From: Tremella fuciformis
Taxonomy: Eukaryota > Basidiomycota > Tremellomycetes > Tremellales > Tremellaceae
DNA: 64,000 nucleotides
Assembly: GCA_032768795.1 (NCBI GenBank)
Contig: CP136494.1
Location: 372,001 to 436,000, forward strand
Reading direction: 5' to 3'
Below, one piece after another: positions 22,498 to 46,082 of the stretch. The notes beneath the pieces are model-generated. The model saw only the letters and a list, made by a program, of their open reading frames with translations. It had not been told where the DNA came from and did not search any database. Every line of letters starts with the position of its first letter. Position 1 is the first letter of the stretch. Made by a program: the position numbers and the translations under genes.

Positions 22498-22643
22498 GGT
22501 AGTGACGAAGGAGGAACGGAGCAAGAAGGTTGGGGCTGTAACCCAACGAAGTCGTCACTGGCTCGTCGAGCAAGGACACGGACTAGGAGGTTTGACTCCG
22601 GCGAGGTCGAACTTGACCGAATGGAATCGGACTGGGATGAGGG
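22498..22643. other. Short unassigned flank of Gypsy E
   Basis: 146 bp between the pogo fragment and the 5' LTR of element E. It is not Copia-like, although the sequence flanking the other end of E is Copia. No gene seen. Confidence 0.5.
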
Positions 22644-23047
22644 TGTCACGTCGGCCACGCCTCCATGATCACCAAAGCACGCCTACGAGCCTCGTCCCAG
22701 CCCAGCACGCCTGTCAGACACGTGAGCCTATCGTCGATCCTCGAGTAGCCTCGACGACGCTCGAGTAGCCTTGACGACTCTAGAGCTCGAGCCTCGTCGA
22801 TGGTGTTTCAAGGAGAAAGCCCAAGGCGGTGCAGAGGAGGGCACGGGTGATATATATACAAGTCCTCACCCGTAGACCGTCCTTAGCACCGTGGTATTGA
22901 GTCCCATGGATAGAAAGTAACGGCGCAGCCGTGTTGTCGACGCACGAGAGGCTGTAGGACACACCTTCTCGTGGAGGACAGAGACAGATCGACAGACAGC
23001 ACGTGTGAGAGGGCCTATCAGTCGACGACCGGCCTGGGCCCGTGACA
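22644..23047 (+). repeat. 5' LTR of Gypsy E
   Basis: 404 bp, starts TGTCACGTCGGCC and ends GGGCCCGTGACA. It carries several CTCGAGTAGCCTCGACGA-type repeats in the upstream half, a TATA stretch at about 22850-22859, and the probable transcript start near 22884. Confidence 0.93.
22850..22897 (+). promoter_or_regulatory. TATA box and predicted transcript start in E LTR
   Basis: A TATATATA run lies about 33 bases upstream of TAGCACCGTGGTAT (22884-22897). That 14-mer is exactly complementary to the primer-binding site at 23050-23063, as expected if it is the 5' end of the RNA in a Tf1-type self-priming element. Confidence 0.75.
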
Positions 23048-23049
23048 GT

Positions 23050-24228: not shown

Positions 24229-27200
24229 GGGGTCCCGAGCTACAAGGAGAAACTCGAGGCCCCGCTCCATACACACTCTCCGCCCTCACGCCTCCTGAAC
24301 AACCGACTTCACCTCTCAAATCCTCTAATCCGACGCCCACTCACCCACCGACGGGGTCCGCTTCCCTCGTCGAGGAAGATCAACATGAAGAAGAAGCAGA
24401 GGACCTGGAGTCCGAGAAGGAGTCTGTACAGAGTGCTAGTGATGCCGAGGAATGCATGAGCGGTGAGGCTTGCAGGCTGGGAAGGCATCAAGCTGTCGTA
24501 GCAGGAAAAGTGAACGGGACGGCCGCTTGCATACTGCTAGATACAGGCGCAGGCGGGACCTTCATTGATCAGGACTACGCCGAAGGCCAGGGCTTGACCC
24601 AACAGAAGTTAGAGCGACCCAGGAATGTCCTCCTGTTCGACGGCGAACCGTCATCCGCGGGCGAAATCACCCACACCCACGAAGTGGTGGCCCCGGTGGA
24701 GACGCTTGGGGAAACAAGTGAAGAACGGCTAGCAGTTACGCGGCTCGCAGGTGCAGACGTCGTGCTAGGGTACGATTGGATGCAAGGAAAGAAGGTAGTC
24801 ATGGACATGGGGAGCATGGAAGTCACCCGTGGAGAAGGAAAGGTAGCCTCGTCGACGGTCGTCGAGGCTGCTACAAGTGAACTGGCCATTTTGGCTACCA
24901 GAGCAAGAAGAGAGAGAGGAAAGCGTACGGGGCAGTCTCGTAGGAGCTTCCCGAACCATATCCCCTTGCGGATCAATCGATGGGAGCAGAACAGGCTTGC
25001 CGCAGAGCGGTTACGGGGGACTGTCACCGACGAGCTCGAGGAAGTGGTGGGGCGTTTGGACGGGCATCTTGGGTTTGACGAGTACACTCTGTCAGAGGAG
25101 GAGTCCCAGGCGGTGCGAAGGACCGTCCCGGAGTACTACCACGAGTTCCTCGAGGTGTTCCATCCTCGTTGACCCGCCGACACGCTACCACCAAGTAGAG
25201 AATACGACCTGCGGATCAGACTGAAGGAAGGCGCAGAACTACGGGTCGCACCGCTCTACCAACTGTCGCCGGATCAGATGAGAGCACTCAGGGAGCTCCT
25301 CGCCAAGGAGCAGGCAGCGGGCAAGATCAGGCCATCGAATGCGGCGTATGGGTCGCCGAGTTTCTTCGTCCCTAAGAAGGTTGCCGGCGAATGACGAATG
25401 GTGGTCGATTACCGGAAGCTCAACGAGGCAACAGTATCGGACGCGTACCCCTTGCCGTTGATTTCCCAAGTCACGGCTGATCTGGCGGAGTCAGAGTGGT
25501 ACACCAAGTTTGACCTACCGGGAGCCTACCAGCTTCTTCGCATGGCGCCAGGACACGAAGCCTATACCGCCTTCGACGGAAATAGGTAGTACGCTCACAT
25601 GAGCTTGACTCAGCCTCGAGTAACCTTGTCGAGGCACACACATCCTCGACGAGGTTCATCCTCGACGAGGTTCATCCTCGACGAGGCAGGGGAAGCTGCC
25701 ACAACGATAACTCCGCATATAACGCCGACACCCTCGACGACCTTGTAGAATGCCGCCGCCTGTTGCCCTCCTCATCACTCATAGCAAGTGCTGAGCGGGC
25801 AACAGGTAAGTCCGAATGCATCACTCATAGCAAGTGCTGAGCGGGCAACAGGTGACCGGAATCCCATTGCCTCAGAGCTAAGATTCCGTCGGCCTTTAGG
25901 ACGCCTCTGGGGATGTTCGAGTCCCTGGTAGTGCGAGATGGCTTGAAGAACGCGCCAGCAGTCTTCCAGCACTTCCTCAACGAGGTGCTCAGAGAGTTCG
26001 TTGGGCGGGGAGTGGTGATCTACATCGACGACATTTTGGTCCACGCCAAGAGCCTCGACGAGCTTCGTTCCCTCACAAAGGGGGTACTCGAGGCGTTGCG
26101 GAGGGCGGGACTGTACGTGAAAGCGTCGAAATCCGAGTTCGAGAAGAGGAAGGTCGACTTTCTGGGCTTTGTCATCTCCCGAGAAGGCGTGGAAGCAAAT
26201 CCGGAGTACGTGAAAGGCGTCGTCGACTTCCCAGCACCAAGCAACCTGCTCGAAGTACGCCGGTTCTTGGGTCTGGCAAACTATTACCGCCGCTTCGTAC
26301 CAAACTTTGCCAAGGTAGCGCTGCCCCTAGTGTTGCTGACAAAGAAGGGAGTTCCGTTTGGTTGGGGAGACGCGCAGGCAAGAGCCTTCGACGAGATCAA
26401 AAGGCGAATGAGCGAGCCCCCTGTATTGGCCCACTTCGACCCTGCATTCGAGACCATCGTGCAGACCGACGCTTCGCTCTACGGGTGGGGATTTGTGATA
26501 TCACAGATTAACCCCTCGACAAGCCTCGAGCACCCGGTGGCCATCGAATCTGGGTCGTTCTCGGGGGCAGAGCTAAATTGGACGACTACGGAGAAGGAGT
26601 TCCTGGCGATAGTGATGGCATTCAAGCGGAAGCGGCACCTCCTCCTGCAAGTAAGCTGTACGGTCCTCACGGATCACCACAACCTTAGCTACTGGATGGA
26701 GCCGAGGAAACTGAGTGGGCGGGTTGCGCGATGGGTCGACGCTCTGGCAGGATTCTCCTTCCGAATCGTGTATCGTCCCGGACTCAAAGCGGCTTACCCA
26801 GACGCTCTGTCAAGGAGGCCTGACTACAAGCCTGATGGATTGGACCTGGAGGAGCAACGAGTGCAGGCCTTACCCGGGTTTGATCAAGGAAGCAAGGTCG
26901 AGACGTCGCTGGGGTACATGCTTCGGGCACTCGTCGAGGAGCCTCGACGAGCCTCGTCGAGTCCAGATCCAGAGACAAGAGAGTACCCGCAGACGGATAC
27001 TCGGAGCATCTGGGAGGAGGATGAGGAGTTCGAGCATGCTGGAGAAGAGTTGGAGAGAATCAAGAAGGAGGAGAACGGGGTGGTGATTGACGCGGCAGGA
27101 TTTCCCAAACTGTTTGGGTTGGTTCAAAGGATGGGCCTCGACGAGCCCACGCGAGCCCAGATAGAGGCTGGCGGGGCCCTGCGACTCAATGGACGGCTAT

Positions 27201-28525
27201 ACCTCACTGGCAAGGGCGATGGGCGGCTCCGGGCCATGCGGGATCGACATGAGGGGATCCTAGCGGGACATCCGGGAATTACCAAGATGTTGGAGTTGCT
27301 CAGGAGGGACGTCTGTTGGCTGGGGTTGCGGCGCGATGTCGAGGCCTACGTAAAGGGTTGTGCCATTTGCCAGAGGACAAAAACAAGCAGGCAGCGCCCT
27401 CACGGTCTCCTCCAGAGTCTCGAAGTCCCGGAGGGCCCGTGGCAAGCAATTTCCATGGACTTCATCGAGGAGCTCCCCGGCAGCCAGGGCTTCAACTCCA
27501 TCCTCGTCGTGGTAGACCGCCTGACGAAGTGGGCTATCTTCGTGCCGACAACGACTCGCCTCACAACGGCGGGACTCGTCGACCTCATCATCGACAATGT
27601 CGTGGCGCAGCATGGGTTGCCAAGATCCATCGTATCTGATCGAGGGAGCAAGTTCACTAGTCGGCTATGGGGAGCACTGTGTGGGGCCCTGGGGATCAAG
27701 ATCAGCCTGTCGACAGCCTTCCATCCTCAAACCGACGGGCAGACAGAGCGAGTCAATCAGATCCTCGAGCAGTACCTACGGGTATTCTGCGATCACAGAC
27801 AAGACAATTGGTCGAGTCTGCTGCAGAGAGCAGCCTTCGCCTATAACAATACCCAGCACTCGGCGATCAAGATGAGTCCGTTCGAGGCGAACTTTGGGTA
27901 CTCGCCGCGATGGACCGATGACTTGAGAGAGAGCGCCAAGCGGGCGGAGATACCGTCGGTCAAGGAAAAGCTTGGGTCCCTCGACGAGGTGCACCGATCT
28001 TGCCAACAAGCCATACAGCAAGCCAATGAGCGGTACGCCAAGTATTACGATGCAAAGAGAAGGGATGCGCCAGTGTTGAAGGTGGATGACATGGTCATGC
28101 TGTCGATGGAGAACATCAAGACTCGTCGACCCTCGAAGAAGCTCGACATCAAATGGGGGGGACCATACAAAGTCCTCGCTAAGACGGGTCCATCAACGTA
28201 CAAGCTGGAGTTACCGGCGACGATGAGAGTGAGCCCGGTCTTCAATGTCCTTCGCCTTAAGCCATACCACCCGCCGAGAATCCCTGGGCAGACCTACGAC
28301 CCTCCGCCACCAGTGGAGGTCAACAACGAGGGCCCTAGCTATGAGGTGAAGAACGTCGTCGACTCGAGGAAGAGAGGCAGAAAGGTCGAGTACCTCGTCG
28401 AGTGGGTGGGGTACGAAGGAACAGATGAGGAGACGACCTGGGAACCAGTGGAGAACATTACTGGTGCTCTTGAAAGCGTCGAGAGCTTCCACAAGAGGAA
28501 CCCAGGGAAACCAAGAGGAATATAA
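24129..28525 (+). pseudogene. Gypsy E pol (PR-RT-RH-IN-chromodomain), interrupted
   Basis: The -1 frame relative to gag, open from before 24129 and probably entered by frameshifting near 24216-24228. Protease LLDTGAGG is near 24530. An in-frame TGA at 25170-25172 replaces an Arg codon kept in F. A second TGA at 25392-25394 replaces the Trp of GEWRMVVDYRKLN and is shared with F. The solo Copia LTR breaks RT at 25574. After it come RT (YIDD near 26022), RNase H, the integrase HHCC zinc finger (HEGILAGHPG ... CAICQ), the D,D,E core (SMDFIEELP, VSDRGSKF, VNQILEQYL) and a chromodomain (VEYLVEWVGYEGTDEETTWEP) at the C-terminus, which in chromoviruses targets integration to modified histones. It cannot make a full Pol as it stands. 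Confidence 0.93.
25574..25891 (+). repeat. Solo Copia LTR inside Gypsy E reverse transcriptase
   Basis: 318-bp LTR of the A/B/D Copia family, flanked by the perfect 5-bp duplication GCCTT (25569-25573, 25892-25896). The intact F copy has a single GCCTT here. The insertion fixes the LTR termini as CGACGGAA and TTCCGTCG. Internal Copia DNA has been lost by LTR-LTR recombination. Confidence 0.97.
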
Positions 28526-28665: not shown

Positions 28666-29495
28666 TCACGACCTCGAACCACCCGCCTCCGCCACGTCGT
28701 CGAACATGGGCCCGACCATCACCCTGAGGTCCAGCCCCAGGAGCCTCGCGTGCCTCCTCGCCTCCTCGACGTGGTAGGCCCTATCCGCCGGGTTGGACTG
28801 GGCCAGCGTGACGTGGTGCTGGAGAACACCGATGTCGAGCCTCGTCGAGGGTGTCCACGACAAGGCAGCTGGCGCGGACGGGCGGGCAGGAGTCGACACC
28901 GGAGGCGGCGTCGGAGGCGGCAGGGGTTGTCGAACCGTCCGGCGAAGTCGGTCGGTGAAGGCGGCTGGGCCGACAACAGGCGTGGGGGCGGGAGTCGGCA
29001 AAGGCGGGTCGACATCCGCGAAACTCACAGCCCGGCGAGCTCTGGGTGTCGAGGACGAGCCGGCGGGTCGTCGAGGAGTAGGGCTGGAGTTGAACGAGCA
29101 GCCCGTGGCAGTGCCACAGGTGTAGCACTTCATCTTCGGCCCTCCTCCGTCTAGGACCCTACACGGCAAATTGTCCGTACGACACCGCTGGCATCGCTGG
29201 CGGCCGTTGAGCGTGCGGAGAGGTCGCCCTTTTGCCTGAGCCTGTAACATCAGCGAGAGATGACGGGAGGATAGAAGATGATAACGCACCAAGGCCCATG
29301 GGAGCGTCCTGTTCGATCCCCGGCCGAACGACGGGTAGAACGGCCCTGGGAATGAGCGAGGATCTCAGCAGATGACGAACGTACCGAAATAGGCGCGGTC
29401 CAGCGCGTTCCTACACCGGACTCGAGGGCCAGCCTCGAGTCGCCTCGACGACGCCACACTTCCCTCCCCATCGGATCCTTCGCTGCCCGCCTCGG

Positions 29496-29993
29496 TGTCA
29501 CGGCGACCGCCTTCTCTGTCCAGGGCCCGGCGGGCACGTACTCCGAACGATGGGCGTAGGCGGGTATGAGCGAGTTGGGCGAAGGGCTCAGCGAGGGACT
29601 CGCTGAGCTCGGAGAGGTGGGCGAGGAGCTCGGCGAGGGACTCGCTGAGCTCAAGGAGATGAACGGGTTGAGCGAGGGGTGCGGCGAGCGACTCGTTGAA
29701 CTCGGCGAGCAGGAGGGTGAACTCGACGAGCGACAGCGAGTTGAGGGAGTTGGACGGGGTACTCGGCGGGGAACTCGGTGTCGCTGGCAAGCCAAGCGAC
29801 GGGACGGAGCAGGCAGTCTACGTGTCTGCAGAGAACAACAATTGGGAGAAGACTACGGAACGTATCGCGCGCCCAGTCTTCCTAAGTATCCGTCGTCCCT
29901 CGGTGAGCTCGGCGAGTGATGCGTTGAATCAACGAGTCCGAGCTCCGTCTCCCCACGTGGCTTCCATGTGCTCTCCCTATGTCCGTCGTGACA
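29496..29993 (-). repeat. 3' LTR of Gypsy G
   Basis: 498 bp. The portion around 29570-29760 is a degenerate array of CTCGGCGAG / GACTCGCTGAG words. The open plus-strand frame there (repeating Glu-Leu-Gly-Glu) is a by-product of the repeat, not a gene. Confidence 0.93.
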
Positions 29994-30254
29994 CTCTGCC
30001 CAACCTTACGATCGAGCTCCTGCGAGATAGTCGTGGTTGTGGAAGTCGGCGGCGGAGTCGGCGAGGTCGACGAGGGACTCGGCGAGGGGCTCGGTGAGGG
30101 ACTCGGCGAGACGGTCAGCGAGGTCCTTTCAGGTACGATGTTGATGCGGCGAGACGCGCTAGTTGCTGGGCAACCAAACACACGGCCGAGGACAAGTGGA
30201 CAGAGGACTCAGCTTTTCCATTCTCCGTTATCTCATCACTCGGCCAGCAACAAC

Positions 30255-31923
30255 ATGGCCCCAACAACACCAGCGGCAACGCGCAAGGCGAGCGCGGCGA
30301 GACGACAAGCCCAGGCGGAGGGGCAGACCAGTGAGTCGGCGCGCGCAGCGCGCCGAGCGAGCGAACTGGTGGCTGACGCGAAGGGTGGGGCGGGCGATTC
30401 GTCGTGCCGTCGAGGGTAGCCCTGGTTGTGCAGGGCCAGGGGGCGGAGCGAGGGGGGGAAGAGGGGCGAGAGGAGCGGCCGGCGCGACGTGAGTGGCCGA
30501 GAAGAGGGAGATGCAGAGCTGACGGGAAGGATTCGACGGCACCCAGCGGACTTTCGGTCGCGGGCGCGGCACTCGTCGAGAGCGCTCGGCAAGCGACGAG
30601 CTCGAGATCGAAGAGCTCGGCGAGGAGGAGGTTGTCGGGGAGGTGATGAGGGGAGTGGTGGACGGGGAGCAGGAGGAGGAGGAGGAGGGGAAGGAGGAGG
30701 ATGAGGAGGAGGATGAGGGCGATGGCGGCAGCTCGCCGCTGACGCAGCTCGAGCAGGAGGACGAGGAGATGGAGGTGGACGAGGGCGGCGCGGAGAGGCT
30801 CGAGCTCGAGCCTGCTCTGCCGGTGGACGAAGGAGAGGGCGAGCGGATGGGGCGGCGCCGGCGTAAGCCACAGCGGCACTATCAAGAAGAGATGAGACTG
30901 ACGGGCAGGAATCGAACGAACCGATAGCGTGTTCGACGCCGAGGCAAACTGGCGGGCTGGAGCCACCGCCTACCTCAACCCCTTCGACCGACCCGACTCG
31001 GAGGCCCCCATGTGCGACGTAGTTTACTCCGTCGTGCATGACTTACCCTTGGGCGAGCGCCTACCCACGCCGCCGCGCACACGACCCAGTCGCCGACCGC
31101 AAGGAGAGGCAAGCGGCTCGCGGGGCGAAGTGAGCGAGGTCAGGGAGGTCAGCGGGGCCGACGACGTCGACATGGAGGCGGAGGAGGCGGCTGAGGCCGC
31201 GCTGCAGGCGGCGGCCGAGAGGATGGAGGCCTCCATGGAGGCACTGCAGGCGGCGATGGGCTGGAAGGGCAAGGGGAGGGAGGAGGGGGAGAGGAGGGGA
31301 GAGGGGGAGGGGGCGCGGAGACCGACACCGCGAGCGGCGCCGCGGACGCCTGCGGCGGCCGCGACACCTTCCCGGAGACCGGCAGCGCCTCCAGCGACCC
31401 CGCGGCGAGCCGGGCGGCACGAGAATCGGACGCCAGCGAAGATCCTCGTCAGTACCCGTCACAACCAGCGGTAGATACTTATCAGCAGGACCACCACAAG
31501 GACGCGGTAGACGCCGAGCGGCCGTGTCGTCGGTGTAGACAAGAGGGACGCCGCTGCCTCGTCCCGCCGGGCACAATAGGCCGAAAGTGCTTCACCTGCA
31601 CAACCGGCCGCTGTACTCTGAAGGATGGGGAGGCGCCGTCCAGCTCGCCGACCGCCGAGCGGACCCCACTGCGCGGCGACCCCCCGGCGACACCTCGGCG
31701 CGACGCGCCCGCGACACCTCAGCGGTCTGCGGAACGCCACATCGGTCCAGGCGACTTTGCAGCCGCCCAGGGCCTCGCGGCGCTCGCGCGCAGCCCGGAC
31801 AACCCCCGACTGCGTCAGTACGCCGTCGATGAGCTGCGGCGCATGCTTGGGGAGGATCTGAGCGAGTGGGGTCTTGAGGACCTCAACGAGGGGCCGGCCC
31901 CCGGTGGGTCGGGAGGACGATAG
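30255..31923 (+). CDS. Antisense spliced gene of Gypsy G, intact, about 483 aa
   Basis: Plus-strand gene inside a minus-strand element, between pol and 3' LTR. Proposed exons 30255-30330, 30420-30488, 30530-30862, 30909-31447 and 31489-31923. Introns are 89, 41, 46 and 41 bp, GT-AG, mostly with a GCTGAC/ACTGAC-like branch site. All phases close. The start exon and first intron are the least certain. The product has a basic N-terminus, a very acidic segment (exon 3), a middle region (YLNPFDRPDSEAPMCDVVYS), an Ala/Glu helix, and a cysteine cluster C-X2-C-X6-C-X10-C-X2-C-X4-C (CRRCR...C...CFTC...C) in exon 5. It ends in a helix (YAVDELRRMLGEDL) related to the E antisense protein. Stop is 107 bp from the convergent pol stop. 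A zinc-binding regulatory role is inferred from the Zn2Cys6-like spacing. Confidence 0.75.
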
Positions 31924-32030
31924 GAGAGGAGGGGGGGGAGAGAGGGGAAGGGGTGTTCATAGTCGTTGATTATAGAGTGTTCTGTGCATCATTTTCGTGA
32001 ACGCATCATTCAGGCAGGAATACGCAGTAT

Positions 32031-35000
32031 TCATACGGCTCGGCGAGCGCCTCGCCGAGGCTTCGGCGCACTTGATGGCTTCTCTGGGTGAGCGGCGTGG
32101 AAGTCCGCGACGAGCTCGGCGGCCGACTCGCTCACATGAGCTAACGGCTCCCAAGTCGCGTGCTCATCCGTGAGCTCAAAGCCCAACCACTCAACGAGGT
32201 ACTCAAGGCGTCCACGGCGTATTCGAGAATCCAGGATCGCCGCAACCTCCCAGCTCTCTCCCAGCTCGCTGTCCACTTCCACCGGGTCGGGAGGCTCGTA
32301 CGACTGGCCGGGCAAGGTAGGCTGTTGGAAGGGTTTCAGGAGGTTGACGTGGAAGACGTCGTGGCACTTCATGGAGGGAGGGAGAGCGAGGCGATACGTT
32401 ACCGGGTTGACCTGCTCGATGATCTCGAACGGTCCACCGAACTTGAGGTCCAGCTTCTTCATCGGTCGCCGAGTCTCGATGTTCTTCAGCGAGAGGAGCA
32501 CCGAGTCACCGATCTTGAAGCTGGGCGGCGACGAGTGCTTAGCATTGTAGTGCCTCGCATAATCGCGGTTCGCCGCCTCAATGTTAGCCCGGCAGAGCTC
32601 ATGCAGATCACTCAGCTCCGTTGCCTTCCGCAGTCCCAGTCGTTCACCGGCATCCGCACCCTCCCTCTCCGAGTTCTCCGAGTTCACCAAGTCCTCCGTC
32701 CACCTCGGCGAGTACCCAAAGTTTGCTACAAACGGTGACATCTCGATGGCCGAGTGCTTCCAGTTGTTGTACGAGAACGATGCGCACGGCAAAAGCTTAG
32801 CCCAGTTGTCTTGCTGATAGGTCGAGAAGACCCGGAGGTACTGCTCGAGAACTTGATTTACCCGCTCAGTTTGCCCATCAGTCTGCGGATGGAAAGCCGT
32901 GGACAAGGACAGCTTAATACCCAAGGCCTTGCACAGGTTGCCCCACAGCTTACTGGTGAACTTGGAACCTCGATCAGAGACGATGGATTGCGGGAGCCCG
33001 TGTTGACAGACCACGTGATCAATGATCAACTCGGCGAGTCCCGCCGAGTTGAGCCGAGTGGTCGTCGGGATGAAAATCGCCCACTTCGTTAGTCTGTCAA
33101 CAACCACCAGAATCGAGTCAAAACCATTAGAGACCGGCAGCGGCTCGATAAAGTCCATGGAGATGGATGCCCAGGGCCTCTCAGCTATCTCCAGTGGCTG
33201 GAGGAAGCCGTGAGCCCGGTGACGGTCGGTCTTGGTCCGCTGACATACTGCGCATGCGCGGACGAAGGCCTCCACGTCGCGCCGAAGGCCAAGCCACGCG
33301 TAGTCGCGCTTCACCAACTCGAGAGTCTTCGCAACGCCCGGGTGTCCTGTGAGGATAGCTTCGTGCCGCCTCTTTAGGATCTGCACCCGTTCCGGTCCTG
33401 GTTCCACGTAGAGTCGTCCGTCGACTCGCAACCTTCCGTCGGGGTCACGCTGCAAGAGCGCTTCCCCAGGGAGGCCGAGCCTCCGGCAGAATCCCAACAG
33501 GGCGGGGTGAGTCGAGGCGAGAGTAGGCGCGTCAGGGGTTAACTCAGCTAGGACCGGAGACAACTCGGCGACCTCAGCGCGTTCCTCGCCGACCTCTTCC
33601 TCCTCCTCCTCCTCCTCGACCCCGATCTCGCCGAGTGTCGCTGCGCGGAGGAGATGGCCAAGGGAGGACGAGACCGTGGAGGAAGAGTCGGCGGTGGGGA
33701 GTGCCTGGATGAAGTTCTGCGGCTGCTGCATCAATGGCCCAGGGAGATATGCCGAGTCACGGGAGAGCGCATCGGGAAGCTCGCCCTCCTTACCAGGGCG
33801 ATACACGATTTTGTAATCGAACCCGGCTAAGATCTCAACCCATCTAGCCTGGCGAGGGTTCAGCTGCCGCGGCTCCATCCAGTAAGTAAGATTCAAGTGG
33901 TCAGTGATGACCGTGGAATGAACCTGAGACAACAGATGCCGCTTACGCCGGAAGGCGTGAACGATAGCCAGGAACTCCTTCTCAGTCACCGTGTAGTTCA
34001 ACTCGGCGCCTTTGAACGAGCCCGACTCAATGGCCACGGGGTGCTCCTCATTCGCCGAGTTGACTTGCGAGATGACGAAGCCCCAGCCATAGGCCGATGC
34101 GTCAGTCTGCACAATCGTCGGCAACTCCGGGTTGAAGAAGGCGAGCACCGGAGCCTGGCTCAGTTTCTCCTTCAGCGCCTGGAACGCCTGTTCCTGCTCC
34201 TCACCCCAATGGAAACCAACCGACGCTTTTGTCAGATGGTGTAGCGGCCCGGCGACTTTAGCGAAGTGAGGAACGAATCGCCTATAGTAGCTCGCCATTC
34301 CCAGAAAGCGTCGCACCTCATGGAGATCCTTGGGCCTCGAGGCCTCTTGGACCCCTTGGACGTAGCCCGGATCAGCCGCCACGCCGTCCTTGGAGATCAT
34401 GAACCCAAGAAACTTGACGGATCTCTGCTCAAACCGACACTTACTCGCCTTCAAGAACAGGGAGGTTCCTCGTACCCGCTCCAGAACTAGCCGAGTGACT
34501 CGGCGAAGCTCTTCGAGCGTCTTGGCGTGGACGATGATGTCGTCGATGTATACCGTGACCCACTGTCTGAGATCACTGAAAAGCTCATTCAGGAAGTGCT
34601 GAAAGACGGCTGGCGCGTTCCGCAGCCCATCGCGCACGACTAGCGACTCGTACATGCCGAACGGCGTGCGGAAGGCGGTGAGGCTCTCAAACCCCTCGGC
34701 GAGCCTTAGCAATTGGTACGCCGAGACTAGGTCAAAGCAGGAAAACCACTCAGAGCCGCCGAGATCAGAGATGACTTGAGAGATCAGCGGGACAGGGTAA
34801 GCATCAGGAACGGTGGCACTGTTCAGATGACGGTAGTCCACCACCATTCGCCAGTTCACACCATCAGTCTTACGCACGCAGAAAGTCGGCGAGCCGTACG
34901 GCGAGTTGCTAGGCCGGATGCGGCCTGCGGCTTCTTCTCGCTCGAGGATTTGCCTCATAGCTTCCTTCTGATCTTGGGCGACCTCGTAGAGCGGGGCAAG

Positions 35001-36241
35001 CTTGAGCGAGCTGCCCGCCTTCAGCTCGATCTTCATGTCATACGCTCGGTGTGGCGCGAGGGTCTCGACGCCTTTCCTGGGGTGGAAGACGTCGAGAAAC
35101 TCCAGGTACTGGTCAGGAACGCTGGCGGCAATCAGCTGAATCTCAGCCTCAGACAGTTCGGCGGGCGGCTCGAAAGAGGGCCATGAGCTGAGCTCGTCCA
35201 ACTGGTCGAACCTAAGCGAGCTCGGCGAGTCCGTGCTGACCGCGCATAGTTTCAGCTCCTCAGCAACCGCGACGAATGGCCAGCGGCATGGATGGGTCAC
35301 GGGGATAGAGTTTGAGCGGGAGAAGGCGCGTTTCTTTGTTCCCATCCGCCTCTTTCTGACTCGCTTCTTCCCCGGCTGCTGCTTCCTCAGCGAGGGCTCA
35401 GCGCTCGGCGACTGTCCTGCTCGATCATCCTCGGTCGACAAGCAGGGGGAAGGCAAGGTTGGAGGCAGCTCAGGATCAGCGGACTCGGTAGGGGCAGCGG
35501 GGCAAGGGTGAGAGCGGGGAACAGCGGACACAGGGGACTCGGTGGCGGACACAGCGGATGTGGGGAACTCGATAGACTCGGCGACTTCAGGGGACACAGT
35601 GGACTCGGTGGATTCAGGGGACACGGTGGAGCTCGGCGGCAGCGAGAGGGAGAGAGATAAAGGGGATGACTCGGCGACATTGGAAGTGGGAACGGGCTCT
35701 GCCCAACCTTGCGAGGATGCTCCCGTGACAGTTCCCTCGCCGAAGTCGATTACAACTCGGCGAGTTCGCAGCCACGGGTAGCCCAACACTGCATCAGCTC
35801 CATTCAAGCGCGTGAGCTCGAACCTTGCTGTGCCAGCATACTGGCCCACCTCGACTCGCTCGCGAGAGAAGTGAGTCAGCGGGCCATCAGACGACTCTAC
35901 TCCGTCGAACAAGGTGAGTCCGACGGGCTTGTCGTACGCATTGAGGGCAATGCGGTGTCGCTCGGCGAACGACTTGGCGAGGAAGTTAGCGGAGGCTCCT
36001 GAATCCAGGAGGATCTTCGCGGGATGCCCGCTGATGCGACCTGCAACAACAGCGTGCGTGGGGTTGTCTAGAAGCCTCTCAGAGGCTGCCCAACCTTGTG
36101 GGGAATCAGTGTGAGTCACGGGTATACGGGTATCATCGGTCTGGGATGAAGGAGAACGGGAACAGTCAGAGATTACGGTCGCGGCGAGTCGATGCGGAAA
36201 GGGATGATGCTCGCCGAGCTGAGGTCCACCATCCCTCAGGC
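32031..36241 (-). CDS. Gypsy G pol (PR-RT-RH-IN-chromodomain), about 1400 aa
   Basis: Frame is -1 relative to gag and stays open from the slippery site at 36242-36248 to the stop at 32031. No ATG was seen before the protease, so it is probably made as a Gag-Pol fusion. About 40 residues after the shift come protease (ILLDSGASANF), RT (WRMVVDYRHLN, VYIDDIIVH), RNase H, a Glu-rich linker, the integrase zinc finger (HEAILTGHPG ... CAVCQ), the D,D,E core (SMDFIEPLP, VSDRGSKF, VNQVLEQYL), the GPY/F region and a chromodomain (LEYLVEWLGFELTDEHATWEP). Unlike E and F, it keeps the Trp codon before RMVVDYR. No disabling mutation was found. Confidence 0.93.
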
Positions 36242-37501
36242 TTTTGGGGCCTGTCCCTGGGCGAGAATCGGGGGCAGCGGCCTCGGCTTAGCGGTGGGGC
36301 AGTTAGCCAGCTGGTGGCCGCCCTGCCCGCACCGCAAGCAGAGCCCGCTGTGCAAACGGCGCTCCCTCTCGGCCTCCGTCAGAGACCCATCGGGGTTGCG
36401 CGTTGACTTCAGCAAGTCTGACCCAGAAGGGCCCGAACTCGCCGAGGGCTCGCCGCGCTGCTCGCTGAGGCGAGCAGGCGGGAGCGACGCGCCCAAGCGC
36501 TCAGCCCATGGGCGTCGCGCTGGCGCTTCAGCCTTGGCATACTCCGGCTTGTGCTTTTCAGCCTTCGCCGCAGCAGCCTCCTCCAGCTTCCTCTCCTCCT
36601 CGCGATGACGGAGGCGATTGTCTAGAGGCACAATAAACTCGACGAGCTCGGTCAGCGAGTAGAACTCGCCGCGCTTAGCGATCTCGTCCTTAAGATGAGA
36701 CTTGAGCCCATGGATGGCCCAGTCCACAATCGCGACCTGATCAGTAAAACCAGCAACCGCAACAAGCTCCCTGACCTTAGCGAAGTGCTCGGCAGCTGAC
36801 TTGGTCTGCCGCAGCGCTCGAAGTTGTCGCTTTGCCGTACCCCGTTCGTCCGGGTCGCCGAAGGCGGACTTGAGGTACCTTTTGAACGCGTCCACCGTCG
36901 CGAGCTCGGCGGGTCGCGGCCGCATACCTACCATCGGCTCGACAGACTGAAGAGCCGGTCCCCGCAGGTACGAGATCATGAACGAAACCATGATCTCCTC
37001 CGACTGATACCTGCCCCCATGCAAACTGAACATCAGCTCGCACTGCAACAGGAACCCTTTCAGCTTGGCGGGATTCTCCCCAGAGAAGGTGTCAGGCTCC
37101 TTGACCTTCGGCTCCTTCGGCGCGCCGCTCGCTGAACTCGCCGGGCTGAACGAGGGAGCTCGCCCTCTTGGGCGGAGGAACTCTTCTTCCTCCTGAAGCT
37201 CGAGGCGGGCTTCCTCAAAGGCTTCGCGGCGGATATTCCACCGCTCGAGCTCTTTCAAGAAGAGCGCCATGCTCTCCGCATCACTGATGTTGGCGGGAGG
37301 TGCAGGCATTGGGCCCAAGCCTCGGCGAGCTCGCCGAGACTCTGACGCCCTGGGAGTGTCAGGCGGGGTAGCCCCGCCGTCTTCCTCCCTAGTCACGGTC
37401 ACGGCAGGGGGAATGGGTGGTGCAGGAGGCTCCTCCTCGGGCTCATTGAGCCTGGGGGATCTCCTGGGTAGACGAGAGGATTCAGGTGCGGAAGGAAACA
37501 T
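36236..37501 (-). CDS. Gypsy G gag, 421 aa
   Basis: Begins at the ATG at 37501, 95 bases inside the primer-binding site. The first 120 residues are Pro/Glu/Arg-rich. The retrotransposon gag domain covers about 130-315 (FSGENPAKLKGFLLQCELMF, FKRYLKSAFGDPDERGTAKR, LRQTKSAAEHFAKV). A charged linker and one CCHC knuckle (CLRCGQGGHQLANC near 395) follow. Only the domain plan and a few motifs match E gag, so G is a separate family. It ends GCC CCA AAA GCC TGA, which provides a canonical slippery heptamer for pol. Confidence 0.95.
   Translation of the reverse strand: MFPSAPESSRLPRRSPRLNEPEEEPPAPPIPPAVTVTREEDGGATPPDTPRASESRRARRGLGPMPAPPANISDAESMALFLKELERWNIRREAFEEARLELQEEEEFLRPRGRAPSFSPASSASGAPKEPKVKEPDTFSGENPAKLKGFLLQCELMFSLHGGRYQSEEIMVSFMISYLRGPALQSVEPMVGMRPRPAELATVDAFKRYLKSAFGDPDERGTAKRQLRALRQTKSAAEHFAKVRELVAVAGFTDQVAIVDWAIHGLKSHLKDEIAKRGEFYSLTELVEFIVPLDNRLRHREEERKLEEAAAAKAEKHKPEYAKAEAPARRPWAERLGASLPPARLSEQRGEPSASSGPSGSDLLKSTRNPDGSLTEAERERRLHSGLCLRCGQGGHQLANCPTAKPRPLPPILAQGQAPKA
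36242..36248 (-). promoter_or_regulatory. -1 frameshift slippery heptamer (C CCA AAA)
   Basis: Minus-strand reading in gag frame is GCC CCA AAA GCC TGA, giving X XXY YYZ = C CCA AAA one sense codon before the gag stop. The -1 frame from here is open into pol. No downstream pseudoknot was evaluated. Confidence 0.75.
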
Positions 37502-37595
37502 GATGAGGGGGTCTCAGGGGAGAGAGAGAGAGAGAGCTCGACGAGATGAACGAGGAGAAACAGGACTCAGCGGATTGGGTACGTGTCCGACGGTA

Positions 37596-37611
37596 GTAGT
37601 CTTCTCCCAAT
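37596..37611 (-). other. Self-priming primer-binding site of Gypsy G
   Basis: On the minus strand ATTGGGAGAAGACTAC begins two bases after the 5' LTR. It is perfectly complementary over 16 nt to an LTR site at 37959-37974, the predicted RNA 5' end. Same geometry as in E. Confidence 0.8.
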
Positions 37612-37613
37612 AC

Positions 37614-38111
37614 TGTCACGGCGACCGCCTTCTCTGTCCAGGGCCCGGCGGGCACGTACTCCGAACGATGGGCGTAGGCGGGTATGAGCGAGTTGGGCGA
37701 AGGGCTCAGCGAGGGACTCGCTGAGCTCGGAGAGGTGGGCGAGGAGCTCGGCGAGGGACTCGCTGAGCTCAAGGAGATGAACGGGTTGAGCGAGGGGTGC
37801 GGCGAGCGACTCGTTGAACTCGGCGAGCAGGAGGGTGAACTCGACGAGCGACAGCGAGTTGAGGGAGTTGGACGGGGTACTCGGCGGGGAACTCGGTGTC
37901 GCTGGCAAGCCAAGCGACGGGACGGAGCAGGCAGTCTACGTGTCTGCAGAGAACAACAATTGGGAGAAGACTACGGAACGTATCGCGCGCCCAGTCTTCC
38001 TAAGTATCCGTCGTCCCTCGGTGAGCTCGGCGAGTGATGCGTTGAATCAACGAGTCCGAGCTCCGTCTCCCCACGTGGCTTCCATGTGCTCTCCCTACGT
38101 CCGTCGTGACA
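37614..38111 (-). repeat. 5' LTR of Gypsy G
   Basis: 498 bp, near-identical to 29496-29993. The predicted transcript start at about 37974 lies roughly 140 bp from the upstream end; no clear TATA box was seen. Confidence 0.93.
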
Positions 38112-38974
38112 CTCGGATCCTTCTCCCGTCGAGATGCTCCCCTCCACGACGTCTTCTCCTACACCTGCGTTGTCCACGGCGGCCGGGAGAGCATCGGCTA
38201 CCTCAGACACCCCAAGATACCGGGTTGAGGCTGAACGCAGGCGAGAGGAGTACATGCCGCCAACAGGCAACACGCGACGACGCTTTGGGGTTGGGGAGAG
38301 GGGAGGCGGTATCGTCGGCAGGGGTGTGTTACCCGGGGAACCGGGCGACTCGACTCGACGCCGGCGGCGTGGGTTGATTGCCGGAGTCGGAGAGCGGGAT
38401 GGCGGAGGCAAAGAAGGCGGGGGAAGGAGAAGGATAGGCGAGCCGAGGGGGACGAGGGGATATGGCGGTATGATGGGGGATCCAGTCCCACCACCAACGT
38501 AGGGGCGAAGAGGCCGAGGCGAGACTGGCTCGAACGGCAGAGAGGGGGCTTCTCGATAGCGGCTTTCGCCAGCAAAAGCCGCGTCGGAAGCCTGGGAGGA
38601 CGAGGGCGAGGCGTCTGAGTAGCCGCTGGACGTAGAGGAGGTAGCACAGCTACTCTCCCTAGCGGCTCTGACGGTCCCCTGGTGCCGACGGATCTCGGCG
38701 TGTATGTCTGCTAGCGAGCGCAGAATCGCCGTACGACCTGGGCATCAATACAAGCAGTAGGGTGGCTCGACAATCACTCACCGCTAGGCGCAGCACTGGC
38801 CGCATCCGACCAGTCGAGCTCATCGACGAGTTCGTCGATCTCCTCGACCGGTGTGGGCTCCGGAGTTTGAGGACGGACCGCCCATTGAGGGAACAGTCGA
38901 GGAGGGGGAGCGTCGACAGCCGACTCGGGGGAGGATGGCGGCGTCGTGGGGCTGGGGGAAGGGGTTTTGGTCAT

Positions 38975-39714
38975 CGTGACCAGGCGTAGAGGTTGTCCTC
39001 GGAGGACGATTTTGAGGGAGGGATCGGTGGCGTTGGAGAACATATGATGCGTTGGAGTGGAGAGTTGGGAATGGACGGGACGAGTAGCCTCGTCGAGGGG
39101 GGGTTTATACCTTTTGGAGGGGACATGGCGGGGACGAGGGACAAGAGGGCACTTGACGACGAGAGCAGGCAACACGACTTTTCACGACAGTTTGGCAACT
39201 TGTTGCCTAGCAACGAGCAACATGATCGACAGAAGGGCGTAGCGCGGAGCGGCAATCACCGGTTATCTCGCGGCGACTGCCGCATTGGGCAATCTGACCC
39301 CGGCCTCGTGGCCGAGGTCGACTCGAGGTCGACTTACATACGCGCAAATTCCAGCATGAGACGCCTACAGCTCAGCAACGGGCAGGCTATCCAGCACAGG
39401 GATCACCCTCGACACCACGCGTGTCGGGACACATGCGGGCTGCACACTACCTGTGCCCGTGAGTCACTCCACGACGGCAACACAGCCTATGCCCCGACTA
39501 GCGCCTAGAAAGATAGCACCAGCTGCGCGAGACCTCGAGCGACCAAGAAGGACGGACCGTCGACGAGACCAGGCCCTGCTTACACACCCACAGACCCTCG
39601 GGATCAGCCCTGCGAGGAATGACCAAAAGATACGGCTTAGTGCGAGGCGGGAGCAAAGGCTCAGGCCATACAAGCTGCCCCGCCTCACCCGCCATCTCGC
39701 AGGAGCTCGATTTC
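38975..39714. other. E: region upstream of the antisense gene, before the 3' LTR
   Basis: About 740 bp between the antisense ATG (38974) and the purine tract. It must contain the antisense promoter if the gene is transcribed from inside the element. Short plus-strand frames here are not convincing. No clear TATA box was identified. Confidence 0.5.
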
Positions 39715-39728
39715 AGAGGGGGGCAGAG
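39715..39728 (+). other. Polypurine tract of Gypsy E
   Basis: AGAGGGGGGCAGAG directly abuts the 3' LTR. The last eight bases GGGCAGAG also precede the 3' LTR of G. This supports 39729 as the true end of E despite the 8.6-kb insertion. Confidence 0.85.
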
Positions 39729-40132
39729 TGTCACGTCGGCCACGCCTCCAGGATCACCAAAGCACGCCTACAAGCCTCGTTCCAGCCCAGCACGCCTGTC
39801 AGACACGTGAGCCTATCGTCGATCCTCGAGTAGCCTCGACGACGCTCGAGTAGCCTCGACAACTCTAGAGCTCGAGCCTCGTCGATGGTGTTTCAAGGAG
39901 AAAGCCCAAGGCGGTGCAGAGGAGGGCACGGGTGATATATATACAAGTCCTCACCCGTAGACCGTCCTTAGCACCGTGGTATTGAGTCCCATGGATAGAA
40001 AGTAACGGCGCAGCCGTGTTGTCGACGCACGAGAGGCTGTAGGACACACCTTCTCGTGGAGGACAGAGACAGATCGACAGACAGCACGTGTGAGAGGGCC
40101 TATCAGTGGACGACCGGCCTGGGCCCGTGACA
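39729..40132 (+). repeat. 3' LTR of Gypsy E
   Basis: 404 bp, near-identical to 22644-23047. It is joined at 40133 directly to Copia C at a site in gag. Confidence 0.92.
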
Positions 40133-43100
40133 GAGGACAAGCGAAGAAGGCAAGAGAGCAGATGGAGTCAGGAGATGACTCATCGAGTGAGAACAAGAGA
40201 GGCTCGTCGAGGGAGACAAAGGAGGAAGGCTACTATGCGACGGAGATTGCACTACACGCCAACGACAACCTCCCATCCACCTCCATCATCATTGACAGCG
40301 GTGCCACCAGTCCATTCATCAAGGACAAGCACCTTCTCTCACATCTCACCAAACTCGACAAGGCCGTCAAGATCCAAATTGGAGACGGATCGATTGTCGA
40401 GGCTACACACTCCGGCCGCCTCACCTTCAACAACGTATGGTACAACAACGCCCTCTACGTTCCATCATTCTCGCACAACCTCCTCTCGACACAGCGCCTC
40501 GGTCCGTACACAGGGACACACTGGTGCTTCTCGAAGGACTCGGCTACATTGGTCGAGAAAGGGAAGGTCATCCTCCGGGGCAAGAAACTTGGCAACCTAT
40601 GGGTTGTAGACGACACACCGGTACGCACCACCTCGCGCATTCACCGAGCACTTCAGGCAATAGAAAACACTGAAGCCGAAGACACTCGCCTCCTCACCTG
40701 GCACAAACGCCTAGGTCACTCGAACATGAGGAAGGTGTGGGAGCTCGGGAAAGAGGGGAAGCTAGGCGCAAAGTGGACAGGGTCATTTCGGAGAGTCAAA
40801 TGCATGGATTGCCTGAAAGGGAAGGCAACGCGCTCGGCATCTCTACCTAACCCTCGTCGAGCCAGCAAGCCCCTCGTCGAGGTATCAGTCGATCTATGGG
40901 GACCAGCGACCGTCCAGTCGAGAGAAGGCTTCCAATACTTCCTCACCTGCTATGACGACCACAGCAAATACGTGCAGGCCATACCACTCAAGAAGAAGTC
41001 GGATGCAGCCAAAGCACTGCAAGACTATATCAAGTTGGCAGAGAATCAGCTTGATCGAACAGTCAAGACCATCCGCTCAGACCAAGGAGGCGAATTCACG
41101 AGCAAGGAATTCAGCCACTGGTGTAAAAGCAAGGGAATTGAGCACACCCTCACGCCGACCGACGCACACAACCAAAACAGTCGAGTCGAGCGCGTCCATC
41201 TTACCATCCTCAATGACATCCGGACATGTCTTGCGGACTCGAACTTGCCAACCCAGTTCTGGGTAGATGCACTGCGATATGTAGTCTTCACTCGGAACAG
41301 GCTACCAGGCTCCCACGCGAAAATCCCGATAACGCTCTTCCGACCAAACCACGACATCGACCTGCAGTACCAGGGGATGCAGCCATTCGGCCATCACTGC
41401 ATCTATCGAGTTGTGAACCCCGCATCGAAGCTCGACGAGCGGGGACAATGCGGTCGACTGCTGGGATACACAGAAGGGAGCTGGGGCTACAAGGTGCTGA
41501 CCCAATCCAACAGGGTCATCACAAGCCGAGACGTCACATTCATCACGGGCAGGAAGACAACGCCCAGTTCAGATGAACCACGACAGATCCTGGAGCCGCC
41601 TCAACCTGGATCTCGACAACCATCGACGAGCCTCGACGAGGATGACGATACATCCATCGAGCTGAACGAGATAGTCAAGGCAGGGGAGGCACCAGAAGAA
41701 GAGGAACAAGGGGAAGAGATGGACGACATACCTCCCCAAGCCGTACCCAGGCAAGGAAGAGGCTGGGTCAATGAGTACATCCGAGAGGATGCACCGAGCC
41801 CGGAACCGAATCCCGACAACGGACCAGAGGATCCCGATCATCGACTAAACGAGCCCACAGCGGCCGATGCAGATGAGCCAAGACGGTCGGGGAGACTAGC
41901 AGGCCAAGAACCTAGTCATCACCCTCTGCACGACATCGACATGGACTATAACCGAGTAGCTATAGAGCACGCGTTATCAGCCCAGTCACTCAACAACCCC
42001 CAGTCATACACCGAAGCTCGTCGAGCCACAGACTGGGAGGATTGGAAATCGGCCATGGACGAGGAGATGGGAAAGATGGAGAAGTACGGAGTGTGGGAGA
42101 TGGTCCCCAAGGAGAATCACCGTACTCTTACAGGCAAATGGGTATTCACTCGCAAGATCGACGGGGACACGGGCAAAGCGAGTCAGCACAAGGCCAGATT
42201 CGTCGTGAGAGGATTTCAACAGGTCTCAGGACGAGATTTCGACGAACTCTTTGCTTCGGTCACCCACAAGTCATCATTTCGCCTATTCCTCTCCATCGTC
42301 AACTACCTCGACTGGGAATGCGACCAAATAGACATCATTGGAGCATTCCTCAAGGCCAACATCGACAAGGACATCTTCATCGAGCCACCAGAAGGTAGCG
42401 ACATCGCCGCCGGATACGTCCTGCATCTCCGGAAATCACTATACGGTCTCCGACAATCACCGCACTTGTTCAACAAGCGCCTCAACGAGTTCCTACGGGA
42501 GCTAGGCTTCAAACCGACCCTAGCGGATCCATGTATCTACTCGCTGCGACAAGGACACAAGCGGTGTATGATCTCAGTCCACGTTGACGACATGCTCATT
42601 GCCGGCAACGATCGATCAACAATTGACGAGATCAAACGGAAGATCAACAAGGAACTCGAGTGCAAGGACCAAGGACCGGTCTCTTACTTCCTCGGTATCA
42701 ACATCTACCGAGATAGGCCAAACAAGAAGATGTACCTGTCACAAGAGCACTACATCGAAGCAGTTCTTCAACGCTTTGGTGAAGCCGGCAAAGCCTGCAA
42801 GACAATCTTGCCTGACGCAAAGCTCGTCGAGGCTACGCCAAAGGAGGTCGACGAGGCTCGAGATAAACCATTTCCAGCACTCGCCGGGTCAATCCTCTAT
42901 ATTGCCACGATCACCCGACCCGACATCGCCTACGCAGCATCACTGCTCTGTCGCTTCATCAGCAAATGGTCACTCACACATTGGAGGGCTGCGAAGCACC
43001 TGTTAAGGTATCTGCGAGGGACATCCGATCTCGCGCTCACCTTCGACGCACATGCAGGAAGGAGAGCACTGCTAGGCTGGGCGGACGCAGACTGGGGCGG

Positions 43101-43560
43101 ATGTCTCGACACACGTCGATCCACAACCGGCTACGTCTTCACCACATACGGAGGCATCGTGTCATGGAAAAGCAGGCGACAACCAACAGTCGCAATCTCG
43201 ACGACACAGGCAGAACTCCTGGCATCAACAGAAGCGGGCAAAGAGGCAATATGGCTCAGGCAACTATTGAACGACCTCGACCTAGGCATAGATGGAGCAG
43301 TGCCCATCTACAACGACAACAATGGAGCCATTCAACTGGCCAAACATCAACACGGGTTCAAATTGAACAAAGCATTCGACATGCGAGCCCAGTGGATACG
43401 AGAGCATCAAGCCGGTGGACTGCTTGAGCTCAAATACACACCAACGGACAGCAATCGAGCCGACATCCTGACCAAGAACCTTTCAGCCGAGAAGACGAGA
43501 CAGCTCCGGCAGTTACTGGGCTTGGGAAGACAAGGAGAAGCAGAGCAGCAGAGTCAATAG
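40133..43560 (+). pseudogene. Copia C polyprotein lacking gag
   Basis: About 1140 codons remain open, from the end of gag to the stop at 43560. Protease (DSGATSPF), integrase (SDQGGEF, NQNSRVERVH), RT (YGLRQSP, VDDML) and RNase H (WADADWGG) motifs are all kept. There is no native start: the open frame runs back into the E LTR and would begin at a non-ATG codon. Capsid is missing, so the copy is not autonomous, though no stop codon has accumulated in pol. Confidence 0.9.
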
Positions 43561-43897: not shown

Positions 43898-46082
43898 GTC
43901 GCTTCCGCTTGAACGCCATCACTATCGCCAGGAACTCCTTCTCTGTAGTCGTCCAGTTCAACTCTGCCCCCGAAAACGACCCAGATTCTATGGCCACCGG
44001 GTGCTCGAGGCTCGTCGAGGGGTTAATCTGTGATATCACAAATCCCCACCCGTAGAGCGAAGCATCGGTCTGCACAATGGTCTCGAATGCAGGGTCGAAA
44101 TGGGCCAATACAGGGGGCTCGCTCATTCGCCTCTTGATCTCTTCGAAGGCCCTTGCCTGCGCGTCTCCCCAACCAAACGGAACCCCCTTCTTTGTCAGCA
44201 ACACTAGGGGCAGCGCTACCTTGGCAAAGTTGGGTACGAAGCGGCGGTAATAGTTTGCCAGACCCAAGAACCGGCGTACTTCGCGCAGGTTGCTTGGTGC
44301 TGGGAAGTCGACGACGCCTTTCACGTACTCCGGATTCGCTTCCACGCCTTCTCGGGAGATGACAAAGCCCAGAAAGTCAACCTTCCTCTTCTCGAACTCG
44401 GATTTCGACGCTTTCACGTACAGTCCCGCCCTCCGCAACGCCTCGAGTACCCCCTTTGTGAGGGAACGAAGCTCGTCGAGGCTCTTGGCGTGGACCAAAA
44501 TGTCGTCGATGTAGATCACCACTCCCCGCCCAACGAACTCTCTGAGCACCTCGTTGAGGAAGTGCTGGAAGACTGCTGGCGCGTTCTTCAAGCCATCTCG
44601 CACTACCAGGGACTCGAACATCCCCAGAGGCGTCCTAAAGGCGGTATAGGCTTCGTGTCCTGGCGCCATGCGAAGAAGCTGGTAGGCTCCCGGTAGGTCA
44701 AACTTGGTGTACCACTCTGACTCCGCCAGATCAGCCGTGACTTGGGAAATCAACGGCAAGGGGTACGCGTCCGATACTGTTGCCTCGTTGAGCTTCCGGT
44801 AATCGACCACCATTCGTCATTCGCCGGCAACCTTCTTAGGGACGAAAAAGCTCGGCGATCCATACGCCGCGTTTGACGGCCTGATCTTGCCCGCTGCTTG
44901 CTCTTTGGCGAGGAGCTCCCTGAGTGCTCTCATCTGATCCGGCGACAGTTGGTAAAGCGGTGCGACCCGTAGTTCTGCGCCCTCCTTCAGTCTGATCCGC
45001 AGGTCGTATTCTCTACTCGGCGGAAGCGTGTCGGCGGGTCGACGAGGGTGGAACACATCGAGGAACTCATGGTAGTACTCCGGAACGATCCTTCGCACCG
45101 CCTGGGACTCCTCCTCTGACAGAGTGTACTCGTCGAACCCAAGATGCCCGTCCAAACGCCCCACCACTTCCTCAAGCTTGTCGGTGACTGTTCCTCGCAG
45201 CCGCTCTGCGGCGAGCCTGTTCTGCTCCCACCGATTGATCCGCAAGGGGATCTGGTTCGGGGAGCTCCTACGGGACTGCCCCGCGCGTTTTCCTCTCTCT
45301 CTTCTTGCTCTGGTAGCCAAAATGGCCAGATCACTTGAAGCAGCCTCGACGACCGTCGACGAGGCTACCTTTTCTTCTCCACGGGTGACTTCCATAGCTC
45401 CCATGTCCATGACTACTCTCTTCTCTTGCATCCAGTCGTACCCTAGCACGACGTCTGCACCTGCGAGCCGCGTAACCGCTAGCCGTTCTTCACTTGTTTC
45501 CCCAAGCGTCTCCACCGGGGCCACCACTTCGTGGGTGTGGGTGATTTCGCCCGCGGATGACGGTTCGCCGTCGAACAGGAGGACATTCCTGGGTCGCTCT
45601 AACTTCTGTTGGGTCAAGCCCTGGCCTTCGGCGTAGTCCTGATCAATGAAGGTCCCGCCTGCGCCTGTATCTAGCAGTATGCAAGCGGCCGTCCCGTTCA
45701 CTTTTCCTGCTACGACAGCTTGATGCCTTCCCAGCCTGCAAGCCTCACCGCTCATGCATTCCTCGGCATCACTAGCACTCTGTACAGACTCCTTCTCGGA
45801 CTCCAGGTCCTCTGCTTCTTCTTCATGTTGATCTTCCTCGACGAGGGAAGCGGACCCCGTCGGTGGGTGAGTGGGCGTCGGATTAGAGGATTTGAGAGGT
45901 GAAGTCGGTTGTTCAGGAGGCGTGAGGGCGGAGAGTGTGTATGGAGCGGGGCCTCGAGTTTCTCCTTGTAGCTCGGGACCCCTCAGGCTTCCCCCTGCGG
46001 CTCCTGCTTCACACGTTGGCCGGGGTTGAACGAGCCTGGGCAGTCCCGCGCAAGGTGCCCAGCGTTTCCGCACTTGAAGCAA
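43898..46082 (-). pseudogene. Gypsy F pol fragment (PR, RT, partial RNase H)
   Basis: Open in the -1 frame from within gag to a TGA at 44817-44819, then again through RT into RNase H. The TGA sits at the same Trp codon of GEWRMVVDYRKLN as in E. F keeps the Arg codon that is a stop in E at 25170 and lacks the solo LTR, so it shows the ancestral sequence at both places. YIDD and protease LLDTGAGG motifs are intact. Truncated by Copia C. Confidence 0.9.

Follow-up and report, generated by a model that had tools for sequence, protein, structure and literature searches.

Does a retrotransposon of the fungus Tremella fuciformis encode, on the strand opposite gag and pol, a spliced gene of its own, and if so, what would that gene do for the element? 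The question is raised by a 64,000-nt stretch of contig CP136494.1 (GenBank assembly GCA_032768795.1, positions 372,001 to 436,000; hereafter the window, meaning the whole stretch analysed) from a genome of 28.1 Mb in 11 contigs. An original prediction, made from the letters of the window, described two long terminal repeat (LTR) retrotransposons, here called E and G, each with a multi-exon antisense gene between pol and the 3' LTR and a Zn2Cys6-like cysteine cluster in its product. Comparison of these genes with their relatives in the genome indicates that the antisense gene is real, conserved, and under purifying selection.

Both elements are chromoviruses, as predicted: LTRs were found, and the pol of each matched the Pfam domains RVT_1, RNase H, rve, and Chromo (Table 1). 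In both, the antisense gene lies between pol and the 3' LTR and converges with pol, the two stop codons being 140 bp apart in E and 107 bp apart in G, which agrees with the 107-140 bp first given. On checking the sequence, the exon ends, GT-AG introns, open frames, and cysteine clusters of both genes were as described. The gene of the window copy of E is split in two by the nested insertion of G, and its exon limits were upheld with one proposed extension, a conserved in-frame ATG at 39043, 69 nt upstream of 38974, that adds 23 codons. A TATA box stands 61 bp upstream of this ATG. Of seven E-family copies aligned to that of the window, five retain its core (TATAAA, n = 2; TATAAG, n = 3), the exceptions being L033, with one change, and L010, in which the region has been replaced. 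Since the ATG is conserved and in frame and is accompanied by a TATA box, these features suggest that the E gene starts at 39043. Retention of the TATA box in E copies makes it quite plausible, as had been proposed, that transcription of the gene begins at an internal promoter of the element.

The model for G stood only in part. Its frame had been described with three junctions and 483 codons; these junctions alone leave it closed, and it opens only when a further intron, 30489-30529, is added. With the acceptor at 30419 the length is indeed 483 codons, and with the acceptor at 30383, which follows a branch-point-like CTGAC, it is 495. The 495-codon model has four introns of 41-53 nt with, on our reading of the sequence, a branch-point-like CTNA close to the acceptor. 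At least 200,000 alternative open splice models were enumerated for G, and the 495-codon model is a judgement among many, not a proven structure.

Copies elsewhere in the genome bear on whether the frame is maintained. Outside the window, 29 E-type loci (L010-L038) were compared. In 20 of them, representing 17 different sequences, the spliced frame is complete as far as the shared C-terminus; of the rest, five carry a truncation or frameshift, three have no start motif, and one escaped the splice pattern. For H, a related family, 16 of 30 loci were looked at: nine have an open frame from the end of exon 1 through exons 2 and 3, three are broken or have the upstream part replaced, and four were left unscored by an intron pattern that missed them; the full H model of 504 codons was read in L039 only. 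The last-exon frame of G is free of stops in six of eight near-identical copies, the window copy included. The gene is element-encoded and protein-coding on the antisense strand, as had been claimed, and its frame occurs in many copies; absence from most related full-length copies would have spoken against the claim.

The ratio of nonsynonymous to synonymous substitution (dN/dS), calculated by NG86 on chosen representatives, was about 0.2 in the three families measured and hence not near 1, the value that would have spoken against a gene. For E it was 0.196 between L025 and L033 (516 codons, dS 0.54) and 0.208 between L025 and L029; the close pair L025/L030 gave 0.34 at dS 0.05, and pairs with the frameshifted L038 gave higher values, 0.35-0.50. 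For H, in a frame that spans the 39-nt intron before the last exon (open by chance, so that ~13 codons are intron), the ratio was 0.176 between L042 and L066 (298 codons, dS 1.04), 0.172 between L042 and L064, and 0.083 to 0.349 in other pairs, one of which had no synonymous change. Comparison of G with L040 gave 0.185 for exon 4 and 0.272 for exon 5. Between L025 and L033, introns are 82%, 74%, and 70% identical and the coding sequence 82%; this contrast is modest, and the codon-position pattern is the stronger evidence for selection.

The gene had been assigned to two families; both carry it, but it is not limited to them. We searched the genome with the E, H, G, I, and M proteins and with E pol (the best 121 of 232 pol candidates were scored), and inspected the sequence 3' of pol in a sample of nine families, grouped by pol similarity. 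An antisense frame with six cysteines was present in seven of the nine, namely E, H, G, I (L072-L074), L075, M (L076), and L078, and was not found in L077 and L079 within 3.2 kb downstream of pol. The pol of the three most distant positive families is 43-47% identical to that of E, and the part of H pol examined matched integrase and Chromo. In all seven families the gene is convergent with pol wherever the flank includes pol. Across E, G, and H, 68 loci were checked, a count that includes the window copies and takes two H copies twice, as pieces. In 65 of these the gene converges with pol; the other three (L068-L070) are fragments with no pol within 1.5 kb. Among the pol matches listed for M, 18 of 22 gene copies have one on the opposite strand at exactly 230 bp. 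Both LTRs were seen for E and G; in other families the position of the gene was judged next to pol.

The cysteine pattern used to call these genes hardly ever arises by chance in shuffled sequence. In the form derived from E and G it has two matches over all six reading frames of the window, both at these two genes, and none in 20 order-2 Markov shuffles of the window. This first form misses I, M, L075, and L078, and the pattern was adjusted after the fact; L078 was found only by a looser version, having been missed by a stricter one. Widened to cover all seven families, the pattern again had no match in 20 shuffles of the window, and it occurred once in 500 shuffles of five distant loci (100 each). 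Its only additional match in the window itself, at 14827, is a simple repeat translating to CWRCWRC...

How closely the encoded proteins are related varies. Homology between E and H is firm, judged by their sequences: the last exons are 35-39% identical, and the introns after LDRxxFG and just before the cysteine cluster are common to both, with the same phases by our comparison. Homology among G, I, and M and between E and G is supported by comparison of profiles, which gave probabilities of 76.5 for E+H against G+I and 93.4 for G+I against M. The value for E+H against L075 was only 6.6, and for L075 and L078 the putative membership depends on the cysteine pattern together with the placing and direction of the gene. 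None of the six cysteines varies when six antisense genes are aligned with L080 and L081; in a set of 12 sequences, the H relative L066 has lost the second. L080 (C1:2593499-2593699) and L081 (C4:59356-59523) are related six-cysteine clusters in longer open frames of 1763 and 486 residues, which may belong to another element type or to host genes; pieces nearby (L082, L083) gave no further clue to their nature.

Outside the species, a G query found no relatives at E <= 0.01 among 7824 candidates, and a scan of viral_contigs found nothing. Profile A1 retrieved one protein, P0001, among 7993 candidates scored. Since the first residues of P0001, as we read them, translate a retained third E intron, this protein derives from unspliced E-type DNA or RNA, and it provides no evidence for splicing. 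A control search with pol gave 1989 matches (best named among the 120 listed: Kwoniella shandongensis, 61%, and Tremella mesenterica, 58%, which point to a Tremellomycete host); therefore, the searched collection does contain fungal elements, and the antisense protein, evolving faster, may simply be beyond the reach of the search.

The cluster had been called Zn2Cys6-like, and in this respect the prediction held for the six cysteines and less well for their class. Canonical Zn2Cys6 clusters, found in the class of fungal transcription factors that includes Gal4, LAC9, Leu3, and Pho7, have the spacing C-X2-C-X6-C-X5-12-C-X2-C-X6-8-C. Six of the seven families share C-X2-C-X6-C-X8-11-C-X2-C (in L078 the second spacing is 8), and in five of seven the last spacing is only 3-5. 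The spacings of L075 all fall in the canonical range (last = 6), and its tail reads as coiled-coil-like. Pfam Zn_clus (PF00172) had no match in the E, G, H, I, M, or L075 proteins, and none of the 123 matches listed genome-wide lies at an antisense gene by eye (150 of 199 candidates scored). Because Zn_clus is unmatched and the last spacing is mostly below the canonical 6-8, the Zn2Cys6 label denotes resemblance only. The likeness to fungal Zn2Cys6 transcription factors lies in the spacing of the first five cysteines; one low-confidence model of the family I protein superposes weakly on a Zn2Cys6 domain. Unlike those factors, the present proteins are retrotransposon-borne, encoded antisense, mostly shorter in the last spacing, and without a Zn_clus match. 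To our knowledge, no six-cysteine zinc cluster occurs in the antisense genes of the human and simian T-lymphotropic viruses (HTLV/STLV).

What might such a gene do? Established are its structure, the purifying selection on it, its association with pol, the homology of E and H, and the common cysteine signature. We propose that a clade of fungal chromoviruses has it as an accessory gene, located after pol and before the 3' LTR and convergent with pol, which would be transcribed from an element-internal promoter and then spliced. In E, G, and H the predicted product has ~495-560 residues: a proline/serine-rich or acidic N-terminal half, probably disordered and with basic stretches resembling nuclear localisation signals, then the putative zinc cluster and a short helical C-terminal domain. 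Most probably such a protein would enter the nucleus, bind DNA via the cluster, and either activate transcription of element copies in trans or counteract their silencing. Because genomic RNA is sense, antisense introns escape removal during retrotransposition, which would explain why they persist. That the gene encodes a nuclear DNA-binding regulator expressed from an internal antisense promoter is the likeliest of the readings considered, at about even odds; in it transcription, splicing, binding of zinc and DNA, nuclear entry, and the regulatory role are all inferred.

The protein might instead act on RNA or in the particle, as a nucleic-acid chaperone, an export factor for genomic RNA, or a factor targeting integration, the cluster then being a knuckle-like RNA-binding module. 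Its second half (C-X2-C-X3-6-C) is short, with no helix in the models, and accessory proteins for RNA export do exist in retroelements (Cer1 CERV, in the sections available of PMC10309623). However, Gag already has a CCHC knuckle of its own (above the Pfam cut-off in E, weak only in G), a separate antisense promoter would be an odd route to a particle protein, and the family I model leans weakly toward Zn2Cys6 DNA-binding domains, so that we think this rather unlikely. It is unlikely, too, that the gene is cargo captured from the host, with a cellular function not aimed at the element. Its introns, its resemblance to a class of fungal transcription factors, and the similar clusters in longer frames at C1:2593499 and C4:59356 speak for capture, but no host parent gene was found (the listed Zn_clus matches, from 150 of 199 candidates scored, lie elsewhere by eye), and the same position and orientation in families whose pol is only 43-70% alike argue for old co-inheritance.

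Convergent genes ~100-230 bp apart would yield overlapping complementary RNAs, and transposon-derived antisense long noncoding RNAs have been proposed as transposon regulators in another fungus (PMC10648671, in the part available). The element's own copy number could be limited by the antisense transcript, paired with sense RNA into double-stranded RNA, by the protein, or by both. RNA alone cannot be the function, however, since selection acts on the amino-acid sequence, and a self-limiting gene kept long-term in seven families is not the simplest expectation; we hold such self-restriction to be unlikely. Finally, the region is GC-rich and of low complexity, and the very many open splice models of G raise the suspicion of chance open frames or an artefact of composition. 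Against this stand the low dN/dS (about 0.2 across hundreds of codons), the conservation of introns, the constancy of the cysteines, and the near absence of matches in shuffles; we reject it and give it almost no credence.

An unexpected lead to a possible target of the protein is the palindrome CTCGNCGAG. It is the commonest 4-1-4 inverted repeat, with 26 sites in G, 15 in E, six in H, and 16 in copia A, against two in 22 kb of other window DNA. The enrichment, seen in the window (22640-47569, 57336-62406) and genome-wide, extends over chromovirus families G, I, E, and H and an unrelated copia element. The centre is G/C in 21 of 26 sites of G and 13 of 17 of I (three loci), and A/T in all sites of E and copia and five of six of H; genome-wide, G/C-centred sites number 1287 versus 519 for the reversed pattern, and A/T-centred sites 3824 versus 909. 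Sites in G pol are spread over the three codon phases (4, 3, 2). Since those in E and copia pol lean to one phase (5/7 and 7/10), codon or amino-acid preference may contribute to them. None of the seven E pol sites shares an aligned position with any of the nine in G pol, and the 422-codon part of H pol has no site. In L075, L076, and L078, CTCGNCGAG is absent or single, and in two of three family I loci the everted CGAGNCTCG is as common or commoner. L077 and L079, the two families in which no antisense frame was found, have other repeated words, ATCGACAA and GAGCGCAC.

The palindrome is thus element-associated, and its distribution is suggestive of a binding site for the antisense protein; since copia shares it and distant families lack it, this remains hypothetical. 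One could go further and suppose self-recognition, in which the zinc-cluster protein would recognise CTCGNCGAG sites of the element that encodes it and switch on all copies or relieve their silencing, copia having acquired E/H-type sites and exploiting the protein. We find this unlikely, but were it true, it would be a fungal retrotransposon counterpart of the VANC/VANDAL system, with the regulator made from a spliced antisense gene. VANDAL elements are not LTR elements.

The features of the locus are collected in Table 1. In addition, a Ty1/copia element with one long open reading frame (ORF) occurs in the window at least three times (3515-7882, 40006-43560, 57685-62052); its pol extends nearly to the LTR and leaves no space for an antisense gene. 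Adjoining a copia copy, at 43900-47569, is an inverted second E-type copy, apparently truncated, with an LTR and gag region judged from repeat coordinates.

Table 1. Positions in the window of the antisense genes and of the elements that carry them.
Feature	Position	Strand	Remarks
E antisense exon 1, from conserved upstream ATG	38782..39043	-	start originally predicted at 38974
E antisense exon 2, first part, severed by element G	38112..38737	-	
E antisense exon 2, second part	29385..29490	-	
E antisense exon 3	29290..29345	-	
E antisense last exon	28666..29241	-	cysteine cluster CQRCRTDNLPCRVLDGGGPKMKCYTCGTATGC and terminal three-helix region
E antisense TATA box	39104..39109	-	from alignment of E-family copies
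G antisense exon 1	30255..30330	+	495-codon spliced frame
G antisense exon 2	30384..30488	+	30420-30488 with the originally predicted acceptor; CTGAC just ahead of acceptor 30383
G antisense exon 3, acidic, low complexity	30530..30862	+	495-codon spliced frame
G antisense exon 4	30909..31447	+	dN/dS 0.185 vs L040
G antisense exon 5	31489..31923	+	cysteine cluster CRRCRQEGRRCLVPPGTIGRKCFTCTTGRC and terminal helical part; stop 31921-31923
Chromovirus element G	29496..38111	-	nested within antisense gene of E; target-site duplication CTCGG on both flanks
G LTRs	29496-29993 and 37614-38111	-	1 mismatch in 498
G gag	36236..37513	-	Pfam Retrotrans_gag
G pol: protease, reverse transcriptase, RNase H, integrase, chromodomain	32031..36287	-	Pfam
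E 5' LTR	22640..23048	+	98.3% identical over 409 bp to 3' LTR
E 3' LTR	39725..40133	+	pairs with 22640..23048
E pol, 3' part: reverse transcriptase, RNase H, integrase, chromodomain	25856..28525	+	Pfam
copia solo LTR	25574-25891		interrupts E pol

An intron-containing antisense gene under selection in many chromovirus families is an unusual structure, and none of the full-text literature matches listed describes, as far as its available text goes, a fungal chromovirus with a spliced antisense gene. Accessory genes are what separates a retrotransposon in charge of its own expression from one with gag and pol alone. The gene may offer a tractable route to how fungal LTR elements regulate themselves or evade silencing. 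From the enrichment of the palindrome follows a specific prediction of the protein's target that can be put to experiment.

Several known systems invite comparison. The available parts of the reports on Cryptococcus TCN3, which has one long ORF with Pol domains (PMC12810828), and on rotifer LTR elements with extra ORFs (PMC5408684) mention no antisense gene. An extra ORF in Gypsy elements of fungi and one spikemoss, named in a figure legend whose accompanying text, where available, gives no orientation, splicing, motif, or function, could be related. HTLV/STLV have an antisense gene in an LTR retroelement (as cited in PMC11963269). A parallel can be proposed with VANC of Arabidopsis VANDAL, an element-encoded DNA-binding protein with family-specific repeated targets in its own element; in the available text of PMC10398659, however, the targets are repeated in tandem within noncoding regions, while CTCGNCGAG sites are scattered, in coding regions too, and are here a matter of motif enrichment alone. 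Among the matches listed, the closest published analogue appears to be found in plants, where Gypsy elements of the Retand type (Grande, RIRE2, Retand) have an antisense ORF that encodes TRP28 proteins (PMC11963269). Those elements belong to a non-chromovirus lineage of plants; the text available mentions no six-cysteine cluster, the word "intron" has 0 occurrences in the main text, and the TRP28 domain (PF04195) had no match in Pfam scans of the E, G, H, I, M, and L075 proteins. The Retand ORF nevertheless lies antisense between pol and the 3' LTR, as the genes of E and G do, and, according to the same source, is conserved across families, is suspected of binding DNA, and has been suggested to have a role in transcription.

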